Of a DNA stretch of 64,000 bases, positions 42,909 through 55,014 are shown piece after piece. The notes beneath the pieces are model-generated. The model was not told where the DNA came from, did not search any database, and was given only the letters and a program-made list of their open reading frames with translations. Source of the DNA: Halobaculum marinum (lineage in GTDB: Archaea; Halobacteriota; Halobacteria; Halobacteriales; Haloferacaceae); the NCBI RefSeq assembly GCF_029338555.1, contig NZ_CP119989.1, positions 2,604,001 through 2,668,000 of the forward strand. The letters run 5' to 3'. Every line of letters begins with the position of its first letter. Position 1 is the stretch's first letter. The position numbers and the translations under genes are program-made.

Positions 42909-42927
42909 CGTGTCAATATGAGACACG
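42909..42927. promoter_or_regulatory. Inverted repeat between divergent genes
   Basis: CGTGTC-N7-GACACG, six-base arms, lying beside TATA-like TATTTAAT (42895-42902) between the winged-helix gene and the zinc-binding membrane protein gene. Candidate operator for one or both. Confidence 0.4.
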
Positions 42928-43085
42928 GGCCCGCACATATCTGGCTCAAACCTGGCGTGAACGGCTCGGCAGGGCCCTCCTGTCCGGGCGCAGGGTGCCC
43001 GTGCGCGCAGGCATCGCGGTGCGTTCTTACGTCGACAGTCGGCGTACCAGCCGGTACACCCGCCCACGGCGGGCGACCACGCACC

Positions 43086-43943
43086 ATGTCCATACACGAC
43101 TCTTCACTGACCGGCCGTGTCGCATCGTCACTCAGACGCCTCCGCAACCCCGCGTACACCGGGGCGAACCGCTGTTACCCCTGCACCGGCGTCAACCTCG
43201 CGGCGACCGGGGCGCTGGCGCTGGCCGCCGGTACAGTCTCCGTGCCGGCAGGTGTGGCCGTGGCCGCTGGCGGTGCCGCTGCCGTCTACTTCCGAGGCTA
43301 TCTCGTACCCGGGACGCCCGAACTCACGAAACGCTATCTGCCGGAGCGCGTGCTCCGCTGGTTCGACAAGGCGCCGACGGGCGACGCGCTCGGCGGCATC
43401 GACCCGGAGCAGTATCTCCGTGCCGCTGGCGCGGTGATCGACGGCCCGGACGGCGACCTGACGGTCGCTCCCGCGATGCGGGCCGCCATCGTCTCCGAGG
43501 TGGCGGACCTCGACAGCGACGACGCGCTCGCGTTCGCGCTGGCCGACGCCCTCGGGTTCGACCCCGCCGAGGTGACCGTCCGCGTCGAGGGGGCCGGCTA
43601 CGGCGCCCGGATCGGCAACCAACCCGCCGGGCGGTGGGAGTCGCGCGTCGCACTCGCCACGGACCTGGCGGCCCACGAGGTGTTCACCCGCCAGGTCGGC
43701 GGCTGGCGCGGTCTGCCCGCAGACACACGCGCGAGTCTCCTGGGCGCGTTCCGCCTCTGCATGGACAGTTGCCCCGCCTGCGACGGCGCCGTCTCGCTCG
43801 GCACCGACGTCGCCGAGTCGTGCTGCCGCTCGTACGAGGTGCTCGTCGCCACCTGCGCCGGGTGCGACGCTCGCCTGTTCGAAGTCGACGCATCGCTCGT
43901 CGGCGTGACCGAAGACGACGCCTCCCAGCCTGTTCGCGCCTGA
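43086..43943 (+). CDS. Haloarchaeal membrane protein with C-terminal zinc site
   Basis: A 285-residue protein. The motif NPAYTGANRCYPCTGVN near residue 21 precedes two hydrophobic stretches (about 35-75). The soluble part ends in a Cys-rich site: CPACDG, then CCRSYEV and CAGCDAR, likely a zinc ribbon. The N-terminal motif recurs in an uncharacterised haloarchaeal family. An ATG at 42918 in the same frame gives a long, non-conserved leader and is rejected. It lies between two DUF7344-type regulators. Confidence 0.65.
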   Translation: MSIHDSSLTGRVASSLRRLRNPAYTGANRCYPCTGVNLAATGALALAAGTVSVPAGVAVAAGGAAAVYFRGYLVPGTPELTKRYLPERVLRWFDKAPTGDALGGIDPEQYLRAAGAVIDGPDGDLTVAPAMRAAIVSEVADLDSDDALAFALADALGFDPAEVTVRVEGAGYGARIGNQPAGRWESRVALATDLAAHEVFTRQVGGWRGLPADTRASLLGAFRLCMDSCPACDGAVSLGTDVAESCCRSYEVLVATCAGCDARLFEVDASLVGVTEDDASQPVRA

Positions 43944-44336: not shown

Positions 44337-44888
44337 TCAGGCGCGCGACGGGTGCCAGCCCTCGGCGGCAGTACCGCTTGGTCCGGCCCGCGAGCGCCGG
44401 GGGCGGAGGGTCCACACGTGGTACGCGGACGTGCCGGCGTACGCCGCGAGGCCCACCACCGCCGGGATCAGCGGGTCGACCGTCGCCAGCCCCGGCGCCC
44501 CGGCGAGGGTCGCGACGGTGGCGAACAGGCCAGAGACGCCGACGGTCCGGTACACCTCGCTCCACGAGAGACCGAACGGGCCGGTGTCGCGGATCCGACG
44601 GACGACCGCCTTGGCCGCCGGCGTCGCCACCGGGTCGCCGGCGTCGTCGACCCGCACCAGCCCGTGGCGTTCGAGCGTCGGGACGTGCGTCTGGCGCAGC
44701 GACGTGTAGACGCTCTCGCGGGCGGGTCGCGGCGCCGGTTCCTCGCCGGTCTCGACGGCGGCGACGGCGTCGGCGAGGGTCGCAAGCGAGGTGGGTTGGG
44801 CGGCGTCCCAGAGGTACTCAAGCGCCAGCCGGCGGCGCGAGCAGCTCAGGATCTGACAGAGGTCGGCGTCGGTGAGTGTCTGGGTCAT
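44337..44888 (-). CDS. Second DUF7344-type winged-helix membrane regulator
   Basis: A 183-residue paralogue of the gene at 42166. Winged-helix core: CQILSCSRRRLALEYLWDA, then VETGEEPAPRPARESVYTSLRQTHVPTLERHGLVRVDDAG. The C-terminal half carries two hydrophobic helices (VGVSGLFATVATLAG and LIPAVVGLAAYAGTSAYHVW). The ATG at 44888 starts MTQTLTD; an upstream in-frame ATG at 44942 is less likely. It is divergent from the TasA-like cluster and separated from it by a long leader, so it is a good candidate regulator of that cluster. Confidence 0.8.
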   Translation of the reverse strand: MTQTLTDADLCQILSCSRRRLALEYLWDAAQPTSLATLADAVAAVETGEEPAPRPARESVYTSLRQTHVPTLERHGLVRVDDAGDPVATPAAKAVVRRIRDTGPFGLSWSEVYRTVGVSGLFATVATLAGAPGLATVDPLIPAVVGLAAYAGTSAYHVWTLRPRRSRAGPSGTAAEGWHPSRA

Positions 44889-45499
44889 GGATGTGAGGGG
44901 AGTCGGGTCGGTTCGTCGACCTCGACTCGATACCCACGACACGCGCGGGGGTGACTAAGCGACGGTCACCCTTCGGTCAAGTGAGGGTGTGCGTCCCGTA
45001 CGGGTGGCCCCGCCTGTGCCCGCGACACGGCCACCGTTCTGCCTGACACGCGGTGCCTGCGAACCTGAGCGGAACCCCCTCAGCAACGGTACGGTGTCCC
45101 TGCGGAGGCCGCACTGACCGACACGGACACCAACACCGACAGTGCTCATCTGGGTTTTTCGGGCGTTCTGGGGCCGAACGTTCGGTTCTCCGGTGTCGTG
45201 GCTCTCCATGAGTAAGTGGGTACGTGCATTCGGGTAGGTTGTCGCCGAGCCCCCCGTGGGCACCGCGCTCACTGAAGCCACCCCCCGACCCCGACTGGAC
45301 TGCCGGGATCGGAGGGTGGCGGCGACACGAGCCCGCAGCTGGCCCTCGGCGGCCAGCGCGAGGACTCATGGATGTGCCCCGCCGGGCCGTCGCACTCGCG
45401 ACGGAGCCGGTGCGGCGGTGCGACGCCGCCGTCGGGGACTCTCCCGCCATCGAGGCGGGACGACCGAACGCGAACACACCAAACCCACAACCCAAACAA
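44889..45499. other. Long intergenic leader, 611 bp
   Basis: No convincing gene on either strand. It contains a perfect palindrome CCGAACGTTCGG at 45174-45185 and an unusual A-rich, C-rich stretch just before the start of the VWA-bearing gene (45475-45499). It probably carries the promoter and control region of the TasA-like cluster. Confidence 0.55.
45174..45185. promoter_or_regulatory. 12-bp palindrome before TasA-like cluster
   Basis: CCGAACGTTCGG, perfectly symmetrical, in the long region between the regulator gene and the first TasA-like gene. Candidate operator by symmetry and position only. Confidence 0.35.
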
Positions 45500-47038
45500 A
45501 TGGACGAACAACCCAAACTCTTCAACACGTCCCGCCGGCAGGTGCTGGCGGGCCTCGGCGCCGTCGGCCTCGCCTCCGCGGGCGCAGGCCTCGGCACGAC
45601 TGCGTACTTCAGCGACACCGAGTCCTTCTCGGGCAACTCCCTGCAGGCGGGTCGCCTCGACCTCATGCTCGACTACAAGGCCACGTACGACGGCCCCAAC
45701 GGCGTCGAACTGATCGGACAGGCCCCGACCGCCGAACAGATGCTCGAGCAGTACGGCGACGAGATGGACGGCCCCCTCACCTGGGAGCAGCGCGCCGACC
45801 TGGACTTCTCCTGCAACACGGAGGGGCTCATCAACGGCGAGGCGATGCCCGTCTTCGGCCTCGACGACGTGAAGCCCGGCGACTACGGCGAGGTCACGAT
45901 GAGCTTCCACATCTGTGACAACCCCGCGCACGTGTACTTCCGGGGGCTCGTCTACGACGACCTCGACAACGACCTGAGCGAGCCCGAGGCGCTCGTCGAC
46001 CAGAACGGCCTCGACGCCGGCGAGCTGGCCGAGAACATCGACGTCCGCATGTGGTACGACGAGAACTGCTCGAACACGTACGACGAGAACACCGGCAGCG
46101 CCGACGTGCTCATCGTGCAGGACATCTCCGGCTCGATGGAGTACAGCCAGAACGGTGGCGTCATCTCGGACGGCCAGGGCGGCACCACGACGAAGCTCGC
46201 GGTCGCCAAGACGGCGATCGAGGCGTTCGGCGACGAGGTGTTCGGCAACCCCGCACAGGACATCGAGGTCGGGCTGTTCACCTTCGGCAACGAGAACTAC
46301 ATCGGCGACGACACGCCCCCCGGCGACGACGTCGGCATCGCGCTGGCGCCGACCGACGACGAGACGCTGTTCGAGTCGAACGTCGCGGCCATCGAGCCCG
46401 CGGCGCTCGGTGTCGGCGGCACGGCGCTCGGTGTCGCCGTTCGCGAGGCGAACGACTTCCTGCAGGCGAACCTGCGTGCGGGCGCCCAGCCCGTCATGAT
46501 CGTCCTCACGGACGGGGAGCAGTTCGACTCCGTCGTCGACGAACTGGCCGAGGCCAACGAGGCCAAGTCCGAGGGCACCGAGATCGTCATGGTCGACATC
46601 AACGACCCCGGCGACGGCGAGCCGCAGCTCCTCAAGGACATGGCCGGCAGCACGGTCACCGCACCCGGCGACGGCGACGGCACCGACTACTACCAGTCGG
46701 CCGACGGGGACTTCGCGACCGCCGCGATCGACATCCTCGACTCGATCCTCGCGACGATCCTCGAGGCCGAGGGCGTCCTCTTCGAGGGCACCCTCGCGGA
46801 GTTCGGCGCCTTCGCGGAGAACGGCGTGAAACTCGACCCAGTGCCGCTCCTGGGCGACGACGTCTCCAGCGACGTCTGTTTCCGACCCGGAACCCACTGC
46901 GTCGCGTTCGAGTGGTCGGTCGACCCGATGGTCGGCAACGAGATCCAGACCGACTCCGTCAAGTTCGACTTCGACTTCGCGGCGGTCCAGTGCCGCCACA
47001 ACGACGAGCCCGTGAACCCGTTCGGCCAGTCCGCCTGA
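45500..47038 (+). CDS. TasA/CalY-like exported protein with inserted VWA domain
   Basis: A 512-residue protein. The N-terminus combines a twin-arginine motif (SRRQVL, R12-R13) with the TasA/camelysin-type cleavage region GLGTTAYFSDTESF and the NSLQAG turn. The TasA-like fold begins (DLMLDYKATYDG, DVKPGDYGEV), is interrupted by a von Willebrand A domain from about residue 200 to 425 with an intact MIDAS (D208-I-S-G-S, GGTALG, LTDGEQ), and resumes to end with VGNEIQTDSVKFDFDF. The VWA domain should bind metal and a protein ligand. First gene of the cluster; probably a tip, adhesin or assembly subunit (inference). Confidence 0.8.
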   Translation: MDEQPKLFNTSRRQVLAGLGAVGLASAGAGLGTTAYFSDTESFSGNSLQAGRLDLMLDYKATYDGPNGVELIGQAPTAEQMLEQYGDEMDGPLTWEQRADLDFSCNTEGLINGEAMPVFGLDDVKPGDYGEVTMSFHICDNPAHVYFRGLVYDDLDNDLSEPEALVDQNGLDAGELAENIDVRMWYDENCSNTYDENTGSADVLIVQDISGSMEYSQNGGVISDGQGGTTTKLAVAKTAIEAFGDEVFGNPAQDIEVGLFTFGNENYIGDDTPPGDDVGIALAPTDDETLFESNVAAIEPAALGVGGTALGVAVREANDFLQANLRAGAQPVMIVLTDGEQFDSVVDELAEANEAKSEGTEIVMVDINDPGDGEPQLLKDMAGSTVTAPGDGDGTDYYQSADGDFATAAIDILDSILATILEAEGVLFEGTLAEFGAFAENGVKLDPVPLLGDDVSSDVCFRPGTHCVAFEWSVDPMVGNEIQTDSVKFDFDFAAVQCRHNDEPVNPFGQSA

Positions 47039-47199
47039 TCGGACGCTGGTTCACTCCTACCGACACCCGCTGACTCGGCTCGACGCACCCCGTCGAGCCA
47101 CCCGACCCGTTCGGCGTCGACTCCGGTCGACGGCCGACACGGCGGTTCGTGACCGCCGTCGGGTCCTCGCTCGCGACCGTCGCGAGCCGGAACCAACCA

Positions 47200-48048
47200 A
47201 TGTCACAAGACACCCCCCAGACGTTCGATCTGTCTCGCCGCACGATGCTCCTCGGCCTCGGTACCGTGGGCCTCGCGTCCGCCGGTGCCGGCCTCGGCAC
47301 GACCGCGTACTTCAGCGACACCGAGTCGTTCTCGGGTAACTCCCTGCAGGCTGGCTCGCTCGACCTGCTGGTCGACTACGAGGCGACCTACGACAGCGAC
47401 GGCGCCGTCGAGAACCTCGCCGAGCAGTCCGCCGGCACGGTCGACGGCGAGCCAGCGGGCATGTTCTACATGCTCGACGACGTGAAGCCCGGCGACTCCG
47501 GCAGCGTGAAGTTCTGCTTCGAGATCGACGACAACCCCTCGTACATGTGGGCCTGCGGTGACCTGACCGAGGCCGAGAACGGCATGACCGAGCCCGAGAT
47601 GGACGTCGACGAGACGGCCGACGCTGGCGAACTCGGCGCTGCGATCAGCGCGACGCTCAGCTACTGCGAGGAGGTCGACGGCGAGACGATCGTCGGCGAG
47701 GAGATCGCCTCCGGCAGCCTCGCGGACCTGTTCGCGATCCTGGCGGGCGGTGTCGCGCTCGACGGCGACGGCGTCGCTGGGCTCGTCCCCGGCGAGCAAG
47801 CGATGTACGACGAGCCCGTCCTCGACGAGAGCGAGGCGGTCGTCGCGGTCACCGGCCCGTGCCTGTGCCTGGAGTGGGAGATCCCCACCTCGGTCGGCAA
47901 CGAGATCCAGACCGACTCGCTGGAGATGATGCTCGACTTCCACGCGCTGCAGGCGCGCCACAACGACGGCACGTACAACCCGTGCGTCGACGAGCAGGCC
48001 GACGACCTCCTCGACGGGGGGCAGTCGGACAACTCCACCCAGATCTAA
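47200..48048 (+). CDS. TasA/CalY-like exported protein
   Basis: A 282-residue protein with the same start as the previous gene: LSRRTMLLGLG twin-arginine motif, then GLGTTAYFSDTESFSGNSLQ. The mature part is all-beta and acidic, with MLDDVKPGDSGSVKFCFEIDD and the closing signature SVGNEIQTDSLEMMLDF. Four or more cysteines could form disulfides. No VWA insert. By homology to TasA and to archaeal bundling pilin AbpA it is a candidate main fibre subunit. It stands 160 bases after the VWA gene with an A-rich leader. Confidence 0.8.
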   Translation: MSQDTPQTFDLSRRTMLLGLGTVGLASAGAGLGTTAYFSDTESFSGNSLQAGSLDLLVDYEATYDSDGAVENLAEQSAGTVDGEPAGMFYMLDDVKPGDSGSVKFCFEIDDNPSYMWACGDLTEAENGMTEPEMDVDETADAGELGAAISATLSYCEEVDGETIVGEEIASGSLADLFAILAGGVALDGDGVAGLVPGEQAMYDEPVLDESEAVVAVTGPCLCLEWEIPTSVGNEIQTDSLEMMLDFHALQARHNDGTYNPCVDEQADDLLDGGQSDNSTQI

Positions 48049-48163
48049 CCGCCTCGCACGCTGACCACGCCACGTTTTTCTCGACCCCAGCACGGTCTCA
48101 CCGAGACCGCCCACCGTACGGTCGTGTTCGTCCCCGTCACGGCCCAGCAGGTACACAGTATCC

Positions 48164-48392
48164 CTCGCGGACGGCGTTCCGCTCGACGGCGACGGGGGCC
48201 GTCGGTATCCCCATCCCTGTCGGCAACGAGATCCAGACCGATTCGCGGAAGGTGGCGCTCGACTTCCGCGCGCTGCAGGCGCGCCACAACGACGGCCTGT
48301 ACAACCCGTGCACGGACACCGTCTCCGACCCCGAATCGGCGCCGCTGACCCCCGAGGCGTTATCGCCGACACCGGAGGACGGCGTCGACTGA
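48164..48392 (+). pseudogene. Frameshifted remnant of a TasA-like gene
   Basis: The DNA matches the 3' third of the preceding gene. LADGVPLDGDG is readable in one frame (from 48164), then the frame shifts near 48196-48204 into GIPIPVGNEIQTDS...DFRALQARHNDGLYNPC, ending at 48392. About 90 bases of the parent equivalent between the two parts are missing and there is no start or signal sequence. A decayed partial duplicate. Confidence 0.7.
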
Positions 48393-48754
48393 CCTGCGCT
48401 CCTACCACGTTCCGTGTTCCCCAGTCGTCACAGCCGATCGAGCGACACCCGACGTGCTCCCGCGGGGATCGATCCGCACCGAGCGACACACACCGGGGCA
48501 CCCCCTCGTAGACGCACCGACCAGTGTCGGTGCCCCCGTGTCTCGACCCCTTCGGAGCCCGCTGACAGTGGGCGCGTTCTCGGTGGAGAAACCGAGCGAC
48601 TGCGGGCTGGCAGGGTGACCCTGCCGCTCGCGCACGCCACGCCTGCCGGGTCGCACGGACACCATGCTCTGCTGACGCGTTGTCCGTACTAACGCCCCCG
48701 AAGCGCGTGGAGCAGGTATCGCGCCCGCGTCGGCGGACGCGGGAGTTCACACAC
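48393..48754. other. Intergenic region, 362 bp
   Basis: No coding frame with haloarchaeal character. It follows the TasA-like remnant and precedes the second gene group; it may carry their promoter. I see no clear TATA box or repeat. Confidence 0.5.
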
Positions 48755-49561
48755 ATGACTCACTTCACTCGACGGGGCGTGCTGACCGCCCTCGGCGTCG
48801 CCGGCTTCTCCACGGTAGCGGGGGCTCGGCTCGCCGGGGGCAGCCGGCCGCCGTTCGCCCGCTATACGGTGGCGCAAGCGACGGACGGCCCGGGCGCGCT
48901 CCGCGTCTCGTGGTACGAGACGTACAACGGCACACCGATCGACTCCCCCGAAGGCGACCCCGTCGCCGGCGCCGAGGACACCCTCGACCCGACGACTGGC
49001 CCGACGTACGTAGACGACGCGCCCGGCGCGGTCGTCTCGCTCGGCAACGTCCTCCCCGGCGACTCCGGGAACCTCGTGATCGGCCTCCAAGCGCTGGACG
49101 CCGACCTCAACGTCTGGTTCCGCCCCGTGCTCACGGCGAACGCCGAGAACGGGCAGAACGAACCCGAAGAGCTGGCCGAGGGCGTCGACACCGACGGCGT
49201 CGGCGAACTCGGTGGGGTGACGAACAGCCTCTTCTGGCTCGACAACAGCGTCGTCTTCGGCGCCTGCGACGGGCAGGCCGACCTGTTCGAGCCGCAGGTC
49301 CCGACCGCCGACGGCTCCGGCGCAGCCGGCGCCTTCGTCGACGTGGTCGAAGCGTTCGAGACGGGCGTCCGACTCCCGTTCGACGGGGGAGACGGCTGCC
49401 CCGAGGCGCTCCCGCAGGACGGCAACCGCTGTGTCGGGTTCCGCTGGGCGGTTCCCGAGGAGATAGGCAACACGATCCAGAGCGACTCCCTCGAGTTCAC
49501 GCTGGAGTTCGCCGCCGTCTCCTGTGGCGACGACGCCAACCCGTTCGAGGTGGCAGCGTGA
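48755..49561 (+). CDS. Divergent TasA-like exported protein, operon start
   Basis: A 268-residue protein. The start THFTRRGVLTALGVAGF is a twin-arginine signal, but the AYFSDTE block is replaced by a divergent RYTVAQATDGP region. The beta core (VVSLGNVLPGDSGNLVIGLQAL) and the end IGNTIQSDSLEFTLEFAAVSCG keep the TasA-like signature. Several cysteines. Its stop overlaps the next GTG by four bases. It opens the operon that includes the signal peptidase, so it is probably a minor or specialised subunit processed by it. Confidence 0.7.
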   Translation: MTHFTRRGVLTALGVAGFSTVAGARLAGGSRPPFARYTVAQATDGPGALRVSWYETYNGTPIDSPEGDPVAGAEDTLDPTTGPTYVDDAPGAVVSLGNVLPGDSGNLVIGLQALDADLNVWFRPVLTANAENGQNEPEELAEGVDTDGVGELGGVTNSLFWLDNSVVFGACDGQADLFEPQVPTADGSGAAGAFVDVVEAFETGVRLPFDGGDGCPEALPQDGNRCVGFRWAVPEEIGNTIQSDSLEFTLEFAAVSCGDDANPFEVAA

Positions 49562-50673
49562 GACACGTCACCCGCCGCGAGGTGCTCGCCGGGATCACCG
49601 CCGCGGGCGCCGCCGGCGCGATATCGGGCGTCGGCACCGCCGCGATGCTCGCCGACCGCGAGACGCTCGCCGCGAGCGTCGCCAGCGGTCGCGTCGAACT
49701 CCGCGTCGACGTCGGCGACGGCTTCGCCGACGCGACCGCCGGTCCGATCGCCGTGCCGGTCCCGACGCTCTCGCCCGGCGACGTTGAGAGCGTGGACCTG
49801 ACGTTCCTCGTCCCTGCGGAGTCGGGCGTCAACCCCGCCTACCTGTGGCTCCGGTGCGACTGCGCCGGTCCCAGCGGGCTGGGCGACGACCTGCTGCTCA
49901 CCGTCTCGTACGCGAGCGGTGCTGGCGAGACGATCTTCGAGGGCACGTACGCCGAGTTCCTCGCGGAGCTGGGCGGCGGCGTCCCGCTCGACCCGAGCGG
50001 CGTCGCCGTCGCGCCGGGCGAGCAGTCGTGTCTCGACCCCGGAACCGCGGTCCCGCTGACGGTCGAGTTCGAACTGTCGAGCGGCTACGTCGGCGACGAC
50101 GACGCGACGATCCTCCTGGAGGGCGTCGCCGTCCAGTGTCGCCGCGTCGGTGCGACGGAGAATCCGTTCGCCGGCACCGCGTCGCTGTCGAACGCCGACT
50201 GTCTGTCCGACTCGGTCGACGAGTGCGACTGCTGTGTCCGAATCGGCAAGTACGAACTCGACGAGTCGAACAGCCTCGACGCTGGAACCTACGCGTTCAC
50301 CGAAGGGTCGTCCGCGTACCTCCTCCGCGTCGACGACGTGGACGAGAACGGCGACGGGGAGGCGATGGCCGCCCGGTTCGCGGTCGTCCTCGCCGACGAC
50401 CCGACGACGGTGGTCGCCGGCTGCAAGACGGTCCTGAAGGCCGGGAACGACGACCCGTACGTGTACGAGGGCGACGACCTCGACGGCGTCATCGGCGTCG
50501 GTCGCAACGCGATCAGCCACGTCACCGTGTCGATCTGCACCCCGCAGATCGAGGGCGAGGACGGGGAGCCGACCTGCCCCGAGGACCTCGTGCGCGACCC
50601 CAGCCTCCGCAACGGCGGTGGCCCCAGCGACGACAAGCCGAACAACGCCGGCGGCAACGGGGGGAAGCGATGA
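49558..50673 (+). CDS. TasA-like exported protein with extra C-terminal domain
   Basis: A 371-residue protein from GTG 49558. A twin-arginine start (VTRREVLAGI) leads to GVGTAAMLADRETLAASV, a variant of the TasA cleavage block. The first beta domain ends near GVAVQCRR (about 200). A second domain follows with a Cys cluster (CDCCVRIG) and KYELDESNSLDAGTYAFTEG, and an Asn/Gly/Lys-rich tail. Coupled to the genes on both sides by four-base overlaps. Confidence 0.7.
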   Translation: MRHVTRREVLAGITAAGAAGAISGVGTAAMLADRETLAASVASGRVELRVDVGDGFADATAGPIAVPVPTLSPGDVESVDLTFLVPAESGVNPAYLWLRCDCAGPSGLGDDLLLTVSYASGAGETIFEGTYAEFLAELGGGVPLDPSGVAVAPGEQSCLDPGTAVPLTVEFELSSGYVGDDDATILLEGVAVQCRRVGATENPFAGTASLSNADCLSDSVDECDCCVRIGKYELDESNSLDAGTYAFTEGSSAYLLRVDDVDENGDGEAMAARFAVVLADDPTTVVAGCKTVLKAGNDDPYVYEGDDLDGVIGVGRNAISHVTVSICTPQIEGEDGEPTCPEDLVRDPSLRNGGGPSDDKPNNAGGNGGKR

Positions 50674-51644
50674 GCCTCCGTTCGCGGATCGACCTCCGGC
50701 AGGTGCTCGTCGCCGTCGTCGTGCTCGGCGTCGTGTTCCCGTTCGCGGCGTACGCCGCGCCGGCGCTCGTCGGCGCCGACGAGAGCTACGTCGTGCTCAC
50801 CGGGAGCATGCGCCCCGCGATCGCCCCCGGCGACGTGGTGTTCGTCACGGCGACGCCGGCGTCGGCGATCGGCGTCGGTGACGTGATCACGTTCGACCGC
50901 GGCACGGACGTGCCGACGACCCACCGCGTGATCGAGGTGATCGAGGAGGACGGCACCCTGCTGTTCCGCACGCAGGGTGACGCCAACGAGGACCCAGACG
51001 CCGGCATCGTCACGGCGCCGAACGTGGTGGGCGTCGTGACGCTCACGATCCCGTTCCTCGGCACCGCGATCACCGCGATCGACTCGCAGTACGGCTTCGT
51101 CGCGCTCGTCGTACTCCCGTTCGCGCTGCTGGTCCTCGACGTGGGCTACGGCCTCGTCCGGGGACGACTTGGCGGCGACGCGGCGTCCGCGCCGGTCGAC
51201 GGCGCGGCGACGACCGCTGGCGCCGCCGACCGCGCGCTCCCGACCGTGTACGACCCGGTCGCGGCCGCACAGGCGTACTACGCGGCGGCGTCGACCGACG
51301 ACACGGCCGGCGACGGGGGAACCCTCACCGGTCGCGACATGACGGCGTCCATCGCGGTCGCCGCGCTCCTGGTCGCGTACGCCGCGTGGAACGCCTACTG
51401 GCAGTTCACGGCGCTCGACGCGCCGCGCCCCGAGACGATGTCCGTGCTGTCGGGCGCGCTCGTCGGCCTCGCGTTCCTCGTGTACCTCCGGTACAGCGGT
51501 GGGACGGGCGCCGGCACCGAGCCGACCGAGTCGGTCGCGTCCGGCCCGACCCCCGCGGCGACCGAGTTCGTCCCCGCGGCGGTCGCGTCCCCCGCGGCCG
51601 CGACTCCCGTCGTCGACGACGAGGAGGTGTACCGTGCGGACTGA
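50670..51644 (+). CDS. SipW/ER-type signal peptidase I
   Basis: A 324-residue signal peptidase. An N-terminal helix (VLVAVVVLGVVFPFAAYAA) precedes the catalytic serine S46 in LTGSMRPAIAPGD. The general base is H85 (PTTHRVIEV), not Lys, as in SipW, ER and archaeal enzymes, and an Asp follows in GDANEDPD (D104-D110). Beyond residue 130 the protein has three further hydrophobic helices and a Pro/Ala/Thr-rich end, longer than a minimal peptidase. SipW in Bacillus processes TasA; here the gene overlaps a TasA-like gene, so it is very likely their dedicated processing enzyme. Confidence 0.85.
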   Translation: MSLRSRIDLRQVLVAVVVLGVVFPFAAYAAPALVGADESYVVLTGSMRPAIAPGDVVFVTATPASAIGVGDVITFDRGTDVPTTHRVIEVIEEDGTLLFRTQGDANEDPDAGIVTAPNVVGVVTLTIPFLGTAITAIDSQYGFVALVVLPFALLVLDVGYGLVRGRLGGDAASAPVDGAATTAGAADRALPTVYDPVAAAQAYYAAASTDDTAGDGGTLTGRDMTASIAVAALLVAYAAWNAYWQFTALDAPRPETMSVLSGALVGLAFLVYLRYSGGTGAGTEPTESVASGPTPAATEFVPAAVASPAAATPVVDDEEVYRAD

Positions 51645-52269
51645 CGCGCTGTTCGCGGTCCTCGTGGCCGCGTTCGTCGTGGTCGCCGCCGCGGCCGGCG
51701 GTGCGACCGTCGCGCTGTTGACCGACGGCGAGGCGGTCGCGATCACCGTGTCCGCGAGCGGCCAGCCGGCCCTCGTCACGAGCGACACGTCCGACGACGG
51801 CCCCGCGGCCGCACGCGCCGGCGTGACTCTCGACGACGAAAACGGCACCGCCAACGAGACGACCCCGGTCCCGGAGGACTCGAACGCCACCGCCGGTGCG
51901 ATGGGCAACGAGACGACTCCCAGCACCGACAACAGCACGGCTCCCGTCGGTGACGACGAGACGACTCCCGGCGCCGACAACAACACGGCGCCCGACGGTG
52001 ACGACGAATCGACACCCGCAGTCGACAACAGCACCGCTTCCGGCGGTGACGACGAATCGACACACGGTGCCGACAACAGCACCGCTCCCGAGGGTGACGA
52101 CGATAGTGCACCGGACGGGACGGCGACTGACGGCGCGACGGGCGGCGACGACACGCCGCCGAATGACCCGAGCGGCGACGGTGGGAACACCACCAGTACG
52201 GGGCAAACCGACGGGAACGTCACCGGTGTGGTCGGTGACCCCGACGCGGCCGACACGCCACCAGCCTGA
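51634..52269 (+). CDS. Sequon-rich Thr/Asn membrane-anchored protein
   Basis: A 211-residue protein from GTG 51634, overlapping the signal peptidase gene by 11 bases. The N-terminus has one hydrophobic helix (LFAVLVAAFVVVAAAAGGATVALL); the rest is acidic, disordered and Thr/Asn/Asp-rich. About ten N-x-S/T sequons are visible, many in a repeat of the form DNSTAPxGDDEST. It resembles a glycosylated stalk or spacer of a surface protein. No anchor is seen at the C-terminus. Function inferred from neighbours only. Confidence 0.6.
   Translation: MRTDALFAVLVAAFVVVAAAAGGATVALLTDGEAVAITVSASGQPALVTSDTSDDGPAAARAGVTLDDENGTANETTPVPEDSNATAGAMGNETTPSTDNSTAPVGDDETTPGADNNTAPDGDDESTPAVDNSTASGGDDESTHGADNSTAPEGDDDSAPDGTATDGATGGDDTPPNDPSGDGGNTTSTGQTDGNVTGVVGDPDAADTPPA
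51918..52109 (+). repeat. Tandem coding repeat (sequon unit)
   Basis: Four imperfect copies of a unit of about 16-17 codons encoding DNSTAP-type sequons followed by GDDEST/ETTPG, inside the membrane-anchored protein gene. Nucleotide copies begin near 51927, 51975, 52023 and 52071. Confidence 0.6.
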
Positions 52270-52363
52270 GACGGTCCCCGCCACCGTCCTCCCCCGCCGA
52301 ACGACTCGTTCGGCGGCGGTACGGGGCGGTTGTTGAACTCCGTTCCGCGCTTCTCACCAGCCA

Positions 52364-53254
52364 ATGACTCAGCTTTCTCGACGGGCCGCGCTCGTCACAC
52401 TCGCCGCCGTCGCCGGTGCGGGGGTCGCCCTCCCGGCGTCGACCCCGCTTGGACGCCTGCTCGACGACGACGACCCCGCCGCGACCGGCGCCGTCCCAGA
52501 CCCCGCGATCACCGTCGGCTATCGGATCCTCCCGTGGGAGACGCCCACCACCACTCCCGACGGCACGGCGAGCGGAGCGGGTGCGAACGACTCCTCGCCG
52601 GACGGCGGTCAGCCGTCCGCCACCCCGACGCCGCCCGAGAGTGCCACGCCGACGCCGTCGGCCGACCCAGCGCTGACTGGGTGGCGACGGGGGTCGCCCA
52701 CCGAGTCGACGACGACGGTCGACCGCGACGACGACGGGCGCACCCGTCTCGTCACCCGTGCGACGACGCCGACGGTCCCTCTCGAAGCGGTCACGCCCGG
52801 CAGCGGCGGCACGCTCGCACTCGGCGTCAGCGTCGGCGACACCCCCGTGTGGCTCTCCCTCCGAACCGACGCAACTGACGACGAGAACGGCGTCGGCGAG
52901 AGCGAGGCCGCCGCGGGCGACACCACCCCGGACGCCGGCGAGTTGGCCGCCTTCCTCGGCGTCCGCCTCGTTGTCGTGCCCGAGGACGGGGGGAGCGACA
53001 CCGTGTTCGAGGGGACTCTCGCGGGGCTGCTCGCGGCGACCGCCGCCGACGGCGACGGACTCGCTGTCGCCGGGGGGCGACCCGACGGGGCGTGGTCGCC
53101 CGGTGCGAGCTGTGAGGTCCGACTGGAGTGGACGTTCCTGGGTGACGCCGCCGCGTTCGCCGCGCGCGGACTGCCCGTCCCCGGCGACGTGAACGTGACG
53201 CAGAGCGACCGACTCGACCTGTCGGTCACGATCACGGCACAGACGGTCGCCTGA
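52364..53254 (+). CDS. Divergent Tat-exported TasA-like protein
   Basis: A 296-residue protein. A twin-arginine signal (TQLSRRAALVTLAAVAG, R6-R7) is followed by a Thr/Pro/Ser-rich low-complexity stretch (about 60-115) inserted after the first strand. The beta part (VTPGSGGTLALGVSVGD, VFEGTLAGLLAATAADGDGLAV) and the end VTQSDRLDLSVTI match the TasA-like pattern only loosely. It follows the sequon-rich gene by 94 bases. Likely another extracellular component; placement in the family is uncertain. Confidence 0.6.
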   Translation: MTQLSRRAALVTLAAVAGAGVALPASTPLGRLLDDDDPAATGAVPDPAITVGYRILPWETPTTTPDGTASGAGANDSSPDGGQPSATPTPPESATPTPSADPALTGWRRGSPTESTTTVDRDDDGRTRLVTRATTPTVPLEAVTPGSGGTLALGVSVGDTPVWLSLRTDATDDENGVGESEAAAGDTTPDAGELAAFLGVRLVVVPEDGGSDTVFEGTLAGLLAATAADGDGLAVAGGRPDGAWSPGASCEVRLEWTFLGDAAAFAARGLPVPGDVNVTQSDRLDLSVTITAQTVA

Positions 53255-53610
53255 GGGCACCTCCAGTCGAACGCCACCGCCGACGGCGGTCGTTCGGTGG
53301 CACACAGTGACTCCGTGCACGAGACGACTCCTTCGCGCGCAGACCTCCTCGCTCGACCAGCGTGGCGCAGGCTGCGTCGTCCGTCGGCTTGTGGCGTGCC
53401 CGATCCGACCACGATCCACCGAAACCGACAGACTCCGACGCGCTGGACCGGCGTCGCAGGCACGTCCTGCGAGCCGGAACGGCTCGCCTGTCGGTGGACT
53501 CGCGTCGGAACTGGTCGAACGAACCACACGTTCGCGGCGGCGAACGGTGGCGTCGCCGACGGCGTGGCTGTGCGTACATAGGCTCCCTCCAGACGTGGGG
53601 CCAGTCGCTA
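53255..53610. other. Intergenic region, 356 bp
   Basis: No convincing gene on either strand. Contains a near-palindromic GCCGACGGCGGTCGTTCGGTGGC (in pieces) around 53277-53300. It should contain the promoter of the last TasA-like gene; no clear TATA box is seen. Confidence 0.45.
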
Positions 53611-55014
53611 ATGAGCAACAGATCGTTCACCACGTCTCGACGCAACGTCCTCCTCGGCATCGGCGCCGTGGGAATCGCCTCCGCGGGCGCGGGCCTGGGC
53701 ACGACGGCGTACTTCAGCGACACCGAGTCGTTCTCGGGCAACTCCCTGCAGGCCGGCGAGTTCGACCTGCGCGTCCGCTTCGACGGCCAGTACAACATGC
53801 CCGGTCAGCCCCTGTTCGGCGCGGCCAGCGGCGTGATCGACGGCGTGAACTCGACCGCCAACGGGCAGGTCATCGGCGAGGCCGACTTCGGCTTCGTCGT
53901 GGACGACCTCAAGCCCGGTGACACGGGCATCGGCGAGTTCTGCTTCCAGATCGACGACAACCCCGGCTACCTCACCTTCGGCGGCGAGGCGACCGAGAAC
54001 CTGGAGAACGGCTACACCGAGCCCGAGTCGACGACGGCCGCGATGGGCGACATCAACGACGAGGGCGACGCCGCCGGCGAGGGTGAGCTGCTCGACGCGA
54101 TGATCGTGGACGTGTCCTACTCGAACGGGAACTACTCCGACGGCGGCGTCGTCCAGTACCTCCCCGGCACGTCGAAGGGCGACATCTTCAGCGGCACCCT
54201 CCGCGAGTTCTTCGCGGGCGCGCCGTACCTGTTCGACCACGACCCGAGCACGCTCGTCGCCGACCCGGTCCCCGGCTCCGACGACGGCTTCGTCGAGCCG
54301 TGCCTGCTGTTCGAGTTCGAGGTGCCCACCTCCGTGGGTAACGAGATCCAGACCGACTCCATCGCGTTCGACATCGACTTCAACGCGGTGCAGGCGCGTC
54401 ACAACCTGCTCCGCGCCTCCAGCGCGAACACCGGCTTCGTCGACGCGAGCCAGACGGTTAACCAGAACGGCGGCTACGGTGACGGCGGCGAGGACTTCGG
54501 CTCCGTCGCCATGACCGGGCGCGCTCGCTACGGTGGCACCAACACCTGGGAACTGGCGACCGGCGCGGGCGCCGGCACCCCGAGCCAAGACCAGCAGAAC
54601 ATCGACTGGACACCCCTCAACGGCGTCGCAGTCCCGTTCACCTACACGTACGACGACGCCGCGGGCACTGCGACGTTCGACCTCGGCTCCGGGTCGTTCG
54701 TCTCGACCGCCACGGGCGTCGCCGCCCCCGCGGGCCGGATCGGCCTGCAGGCGAAGGCCGACGAGGCCACCGTCGACATCGACAACGTGGCGCTGTCGGT
54801 CGACGGCACGACCGTCACGTTCGTCGGTCCCGACGGCGTGACCGCCAGCAACGACGACGGCCCCGGCGGGCGCGAAATCGCGTACGTCGCGCTCACCACC
54901 GACGCGGCCGACCTCGCGAACGGCTTCGTCCTCTCGGGTGACGTGACGATCACGCTGCAGGGCGACTTCCCCGGCAACGACGAGGGCGTCGCGTTCGACA
55001 TCGTCGTCGAGTGA
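53611..55014 (+). CDS. TasA/CalY-like protein with C-terminal beta domain
   Basis: A 467-residue protein. It starts with TTSRRNVLLGIG, followed by the same GLGTTAYFSDTESFSGNSLQ block as the first two cluster genes. The TasA-like domain (DDLKPGDTGIGEFCFQIDD) closes near residue 270 with SVGNEIQTDSIAFDIDF. A further beta domain follows (about 275-467), with strands such as GSFVSTATGVAAPAGRIGLQ and FVLSGDVTITLQGDFPG. That extra domain distinguishes it as a possible adhesin or cap. Own transcription unit by spacing. Confidence 0.8.
   Translation: MSNRSFTTSRRNVLLGIGAVGIASAGAGLGTTAYFSDTESFSGNSLQAGEFDLRVRFDGQYNMPGQPLFGAASGVIDGVNSTANGQVIGEADFGFVVDDLKPGDTGIGEFCFQIDDNPGYLTFGGEATENLENGYTEPESTTAAMGDINDEGDAAGEGELLDAMIVDVSYSNGNYSDGGVVQYLPGTSKGDIFSGTLREFFAGAPYLFDHDPSTLVADPVPGSDDGFVEPCLLFEFEVPTSVGNEIQTDSIAFDIDFNAVQARHNLLRASSANTGFVDASQTVNQNGGYGDGGEDFGSVAMTGRARYGGTNTWELATGAGAGTPSQDQQNIDWTPLNGVAVPFTYTYDDAAGTATFDLGSGSFVSTATGVAAPAGRIGLQAKADEATVDIDNVALSVDGTTVTFVGPDGVTASNDDGPGGREIAYVALTTDAADLANGFVLSGDVTITLQGDFPGNDEGVAFDIVVE

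Follow-up and report, generated by a model that had tools for sequence, protein, structure and literature searches.

A conserved haloarchaeal operon of TasA-like proteins with a SipW-class signal peptidase, a candidate extracellular fiber system in Halobaculum marinum

TasA-type matrix fibers are known in detail from Bacillus. In the tapA-sipW-tasA system of Bacillus subtilis, TasA (PDB entries 5of1, 5of2, and 8aur) polymerizes through N-terminal residues 28 to 38, which enter the next subunit and make contacts by way of F29, I32, and F39 (PMC9674648), and P62, which belongs to a conserved proline box, is in contact with A28 and F29 (PMC10151520). A Bacillus strain that secretes only residues 44 to 57 of TapA still makes proper biofilms (PMC10151520). 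Bacillus cereus carries the gene set sipW-calY1-bc_1280-calY2, in which more than one camelysin lies beside the SipW peptidase and a true tapA is absent (PMC10151520). Archaeal relatives of TasA and archaeal donor-strand fibers have been reported before (PMC10151520, PMC9674648, PMC9715654). They include the archaeal bundling pilus of Pyrobaculum calidifontis, built from AbpA (7ueg), which two of these sources (PMC9674648, PMC9715654) describe as a TasA-related donor-strand fiber, and the Sulfolobus thread filament (Saci_0406/0405; PMC9715654), a donor-strand fiber with a signal cut by type I signal peptidase and an adjoining putative cap subunit.

The window analyzed here, a 64,000-nucleotide stretch of the Halobaculum marinum genome, contains a cluster that resembles these systems at several points (Table 1). 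Like tapA-sipW-tasA, it combines a jelly roll (Z 9.7) and a SipW-type signal placed directly ahead of a conserved N-terminal segment with a KPGD partner box, a closing block of the form GN-x-Q/S, a linked SipW-class peptidase, and a linked putative SipW substrate other than the jelly-roll proteins. Unlike the B. subtilis system, it has six subunits rather than one, a Tat motif, a VWA subunit, and the cores C, D, and F, and its protein E probably lacks the Ig domain of TapA. The camelysins of B. cereus, compared here by description and not by sequence, number only two and have no VWA domain. The Sulfolobus thread filament differs in its Sec-type signal and its subunit family, and a dedicated peptidase has not been reported for it.

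The coordinates that the original prediction gave for 45500-55014 were all correct, and the eight genes form one set on the forward strand. The set exceeds the tapA-sipW-tasA layout, as had been claimed, with six subunits, a peptidase, and E in an operon; the VWA domain of A, a decayed seventh core, and the Tat signals are additions to that account. Overlaps between C and D (4 nt), D and S (4 nt), and S and E (11 nt) indicate coupled translation of C-D-S-E. The peptidase gene had been described as overlapping two genes for TasA-like cores, which holds for D, whereas its second partner is E, which is not one of the six. The closing block VGNEIQTDS had been assigned to all six cores, intact or as a variant; A, B, and G carry it unchanged, C (GNTIQSDS) and F (VNVTQSDR) have variants, and D has lost it. 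At the 5' end, genes A, B, and G resemble each other in DNA (72 to 80% across 180 nt), which, together with the decayed B-like fragment, argues that the subunits multiply by tandem duplication. A scan for sigma-70 promoters and terminators gave no signal above chance, as expected for an archaeal host. Upstream of the cluster lie a gene for a DUF7344 protein (44337-44942, reverse strand; PF24035, 82 bits), which could be a regulator, and an uncharacterized gene (42918-43943, forward strand); relatives of both also stand upstream of the cluster in Halolamina (loci L018 and L020).

Table 1. Features of the cluster, with positions in the window and the evidence for each assignment (pLDDT values are those of AlphaFold models).
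Feature	Coordinates	Strand	Description	Evidence
A	45500..47038	+	TasA-like, VWA inserted in jelly-roll hairpin, Tat and SipW-type signal	TIGR04088 32.1 bits; PF00092 E 3e-8; pLDDT 83
B	47200..48048	+	Plain TasA-like, probably the shaft subunit, Tat and SipW-type signal	TIGR04088 30.0 bits; pLDDT 82; top PDB match TasA, Z 9.7
Decayed B-like fragment	48163..48392	+	Closing block only	105 nt, 89% identity to B; frame within ORF 47859-48392
C	48755..49561	+	TasA-like core, twin-arginine signal, no SipW box	hhalign against B family; kept in operon
D	49558..50673	+	GTG start; TasA-like core, weak SipW box, Cys-containing C-terminal part	hhalign; TIGR04088 11.9 bits, below cut-off
S	50670..51644	+	SipW-class type I signal peptidase with S46 and H85 as catalytic residues	TIGR02228 91.6 bits
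E	51634..52269	+	GTG start; SipW-type signal without twin arginines, acidic Ser/Thr/sequon-rich tail	Positional relatives; signal statistics
F	52364..53254	+	Divergent C-like TasA core, twin-arginine signal, no SipW box	hhalign against C family
G	53611..55014	+	TasA-like core, C-terminal choice-of-anchor W domain, Tat and SipW-type signal	TIGR04088 32.7 bits; NF041928 52.7 bits (cut-off 45)

A, B, C, D, F, and G are all TasA-like, in agreement with the six cores of the original prediction; the assignment draws on the fold of B, on profile homology of C, D, and F, and, for A, B, and G, on SipW-type signals. Structure prediction, which had been proposed as a check with folds unrelated to TasA as the refuting outcome, was run on B. 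B passed this check, and the original interpretation is supported with two changes, which concern E and the Tat signals. The AlphaFold model of B, built with 40 related sequences taken from the collected loci, is a confidently predicted jelly roll (mean pLDDT, 82) in which mature residues 1 to 17 are without structure. TasA was its sole PDB match at a Foldseek E value of 0.001 or less, and crystal and fiber structures of TasA occupied ranks 1 to 3 in a VIA-align comparison with the PDB (Z 9.7, 9.6, and 8.7; rmsd 3.3 to 3.7 over 153 to 155 residues), followed by the next chain at Z 7.6. AbpA matched the model only at Z 5.6 (rmsd 5.4, 146 aligned residues), a value in the range that unrelated jelly rolls also reach. 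At the sequence level, B used as a single sequence found no match in the PDB, and the B profile found TasA only at an E value of 0.22, ranked below a chance match to sialoadhesin. The camelysin model PF12389 has a gathering score of 22.5 bits, and A, B, and G fall short of it at 20.4 to 22.4 bits with partial matches; a search of the H. marinum genome with this model gave no match. The kinship to TasA and camelysin is therefore one of fold and signal and not of the PF12389 model.

The remaining cores were connected to B by profile comparison with hhalign. D matched the B family with a probability of 99.7% (E 8e-27), and C did so with 99.2% (E 6e-20) in an alignment that starts at the KPGD box. 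F matched the C family (92%, E 6e-7) and is tied to the TasA core through C; in the rest of the taxonomic family, F was without a close relative. The missing SipW box in C and F and the weak box in D mean that the subunits do not all fit a simple scheme. C is possibly an end or adaptor subunit, and the retention of the jelly roll in both C and F, with the SipW box absent, would suit such a role for the two proteins. In G, the choice-of-anchor W domain occupies residues 300 to 458, with no anchor behind it. The B orthologue of Halorubrum bears a C-terminal part resembling that of G.

Of all 16-residue windows in the relatives of B (40 proteins), YFSDxESFxGNxLxAG is conserved best, yet it is unfolded in the B model. 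Residues F2, D4, N11, A15, and G16 are invariant in these relatives, and the KPGD box varies hardly at all. The corresponding parts of TasA are the donor strand and the interface between protomers. Among the large subunits, the N-terminal segment ranks fifth of 461 windows for conservation, behind the closing block. A conserved but unfolded N terminus directly behind the predicted cleavage site matches what donor-strand exchange predicts, and by analogy with TasA, this segment would work as the donor strand of the B family.

The SipW-type signals were identified with the model TIGR04088 (cut-off, 19 bits), which A, B, and G exceed, which D fails to reach, and which has no match in C and F. Each of the 101 SipW-type signals of TasA-like proteins from the haloarchaeal loci contained a Tat motif (S/T-R-R-x-hydrophobic), always placed 22 residues ahead of the predicted cut; the first loci were gathered by a pattern including GTTAYFSD, which biases the residues after RR and not RR itself, and a sample collected with TIGR04088 had the motif in 13 of 13 signals. 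Only 1 of the 22 SipW-type signals of other Halobacteriota had a Tat-type motif. The signal core was weakly hydrophobic in the haloarchaeal proteins (mean Kyte-Doolittle value, 1.13) compared with a mean of 1.88 in the other Halobacteriota. The H. marinum genome has three TatC matches, and A, B, and G are predicted from their signals to be Tat substrates. Tat is the predominant secretion route in halophilic archaea (PMC2910488), which makes a switch of folded jelly-roll subunits to Tat plausible. In a review (PMC4343526), the export route of proteins cut by archaeal type I peptidases still stands as "Sec (Tat?)", and no description of Tat combined with SipW processing was found among searchable open-licence papers, an absence that is weak evidence.

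The peptidase S, of the Ser/His type I class (S26B), scored above the cut-off of the archaeal type I family model TIGR02228 (51.85 bits) and is the best of four such matches in the genome. It scored 91 bits against the equivalog model for Bacillus SipW (NF046067) and missed the cut-off of 190, and S is SipW-class by context and not an equivalog of the Bacillus enzyme. The original prediction had named S46 and H85 for the SipW-like peptidase; both residues are intact and, like G103-D104, invariant in 20 relatives. Across the whole genome, TIGR04088 matched A, B, and G and nothing else, and all of the clear SipW-type substrates thus adjoin the peptidase.

The VWA domain of A is inserted between two strands that form a hairpin near residues 114 to 137 in B. 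Pfam identified a VWA domain in 29 of 49 large relatives, and of the 36 relatives with the MIDAS columns filled, 30 had the complete set of MIDAS residues. The best structural match to the insert was the VWA domain of the type V pilus tip protein Mfa5 (6tnj; Z 22.2, rmsd 2.0, 183 residues), in a tie with many other VWA domains. Mfa5 is likewise one VWA-bearing subunit of a donor-strand pilus, but it belongs to an unrelated pilus family, and convergence is likely. Placement of VWA in the jelly-roll hairpin is as expected for an adhesive subunit, and A may have this role, perhaps at the tip.

In a survey that took a single genome for each species, 36 loci were found, almost all in haloarchaea. 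About 25 began with two to four TasA-like genes, of which some carry VWA, followed by C, D, S, and E in this order, and a few Natronococcus-like loci were without C. Haloferax volcanii, too, has a match to TIGR04088. Recurrence of this order and of the neighbors in about 25 haloarchaeal contigs indicates that the set is more than a chance association. The closest relatives were those in Halolamina, with 75% identity in A and 64 to 67% in C. Within the taxonomic family, 101 genomes had SipW-type signals, and 78 of them had C, which was absent from all 69 genomes without such signals (nominal p = 8e-28, the species not being independent). Within the genus, C occurred in 2 of 11 genomes, which marks the system as accessory. 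A metagenome-assembled genome of the Patescibacteria (L034:9983-13495) had a pair of TasA-like genes and, behind them, genes for a SipW-class peptidase and one more protein; the signals there are of the Sec type. Natronocalculus (L014:9280-14291) has two clusters in facing orientation, both equipped with a peptidase of their own.

Taken as a whole scheme, the locus would be a haloarchaeal TasA/camelysin-type extracellular fiber system, a reading to which we assign a probability of about 0.78. A, B, D, and G would fold in the cytoplasm and leave the cell through the Tat translocase, after which S would cut behind GTTA, just before the YFSDxESFxGN...AG segment. This cut would free an N-terminal donor strand to enter the groove of the next subunit, and the fiber would grow by donor-strand exchange, as that of TasA does. 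The shaft would consist of B and perhaps also G; the part of an adhesive subunit, perhaps at the tip, would fall to A with its metal-binding VWA domain; and C and F would serve as end or adaptor subunits. E would be exported via Sec, cut by S, and remain otherwise disordered, and it would provide the first donor strand in the manner of the TapA N terminus. A Tat-exported subunit might in principle self-associate before export, which is a point against this scheme; it is conceivable that the signal peptide, uncut during Tat export, would tie up the donor strand until SipW cleavage. The more specific proposition that subunits are exported folded, that the SipW cut at the start of the strand is the polymerization switch, and that E is a Sec-exported initiator, so that two export routes join at one peptidase, is somewhat less likely than not.

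The position of E in this scheme has a serious competitor. The original prediction had described E as sequon-rich and membrane anchored; its 10 sequons bear out the former, whereas the supposed anchor is more likely a signal peptide of the SipW type. If the hydrophobic N terminus stayed uncut, E would be a membrane anchor or a wall-spanning tether whose acidic, glycosylated tail holds the fiber to the cell. We regard this alternative as somewhat improbable yet well worth keeping in view: the N-terminal stretch is strongly hydrophobic in all 27 E proteins (core mean 1.86), and several residues of the SipW-type box depart from the consensus, the E protein of the window reading LLTDGE. Nevertheless, of 10 scanned positional relatives of E, which stand behind S at almost every locus, 9 match TIGR04088 with scores from 12.5 to 21 bits, one of them reaching the cut-off, and Ala or another small residue precedes the predicted cut in all 27 proteins. 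None of the 27 has a Tat motif, and their signal core resembles that of Sec-type signals. The tail, which is acidic, low in complexity, and rich in Ser/Thr and sequons, mostly has no further hydrophobic stretch at the C terminus, as suits a secreted protein. E is thus probably not a membrane anchor. Family models gave no match to E and hence none to an Ig domain. We propose that E resembles a minimal TapA initiator consisting of a donor strand and a disordered tail, TapA-like by analogy in its working and not a member of that family. Positions 51854-52099 of E hold imperfect 24/48-nt repeats that encode a sequon-bearing unit of approximately ETTPxADNSTAPxGDD, and the length of the tail may therefore differ between strains.

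For the subunits themselves, it is conceivable but unlikely that they are surface proteins, secreted but not polymerizing, for example adhesins or decoration of the S-layer, which have the jelly roll of TasA and a SipW-type signal in common. The many subunits per operon, their varied C-terminal additions, and the VWA and choice-of-anchor W domains would all suit surface adhesins. This explanation leaves no reason for a non-polymerizing protein to retain both the unfolded N-terminal segment, the best-conserved window and the counterpart of the donor strand in TasA, and the KPGD box. The Pfam name of PF12389, Peptidase_M73, would instead make A, B, and G camelysin metallopeptidases, and their N termini are indeed hit at E values of 1e-4 to 5e-4, just short of the cut-off. 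That match, however, spans about 40 of 196 model positions and corresponds to the signal and the donor segment, HExxH is absent from every subunit, and the fold is shared with TasA, which has a structural role. This metallopeptidase reading, which is highly improbable, was dropped for the absence of HExxH and the partial match.

Searches of open-licence papers returned no relevant publication on SipW or TasA in haloarchaea, Haloferax, or Halobacteria and no description of a multisubunit haloarchaeal operon with Tat-type SipW signals, a VWA subunit, and E, although such absence is weak evidence. The fiber system proposed here would carry TasA-type matrix fibers from Bacillus to salt-loving archaea in the form of a conserved operon with named parts, and it suggests a VWA-bearing donor-strand pilus beyond the known bacterial ones. 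S is a testable candidate for the enzyme that trims a class of Tat-exported archaeal proteins, and the operon is a concrete candidate for haloarchaeal adhesion and biofilm matrix.
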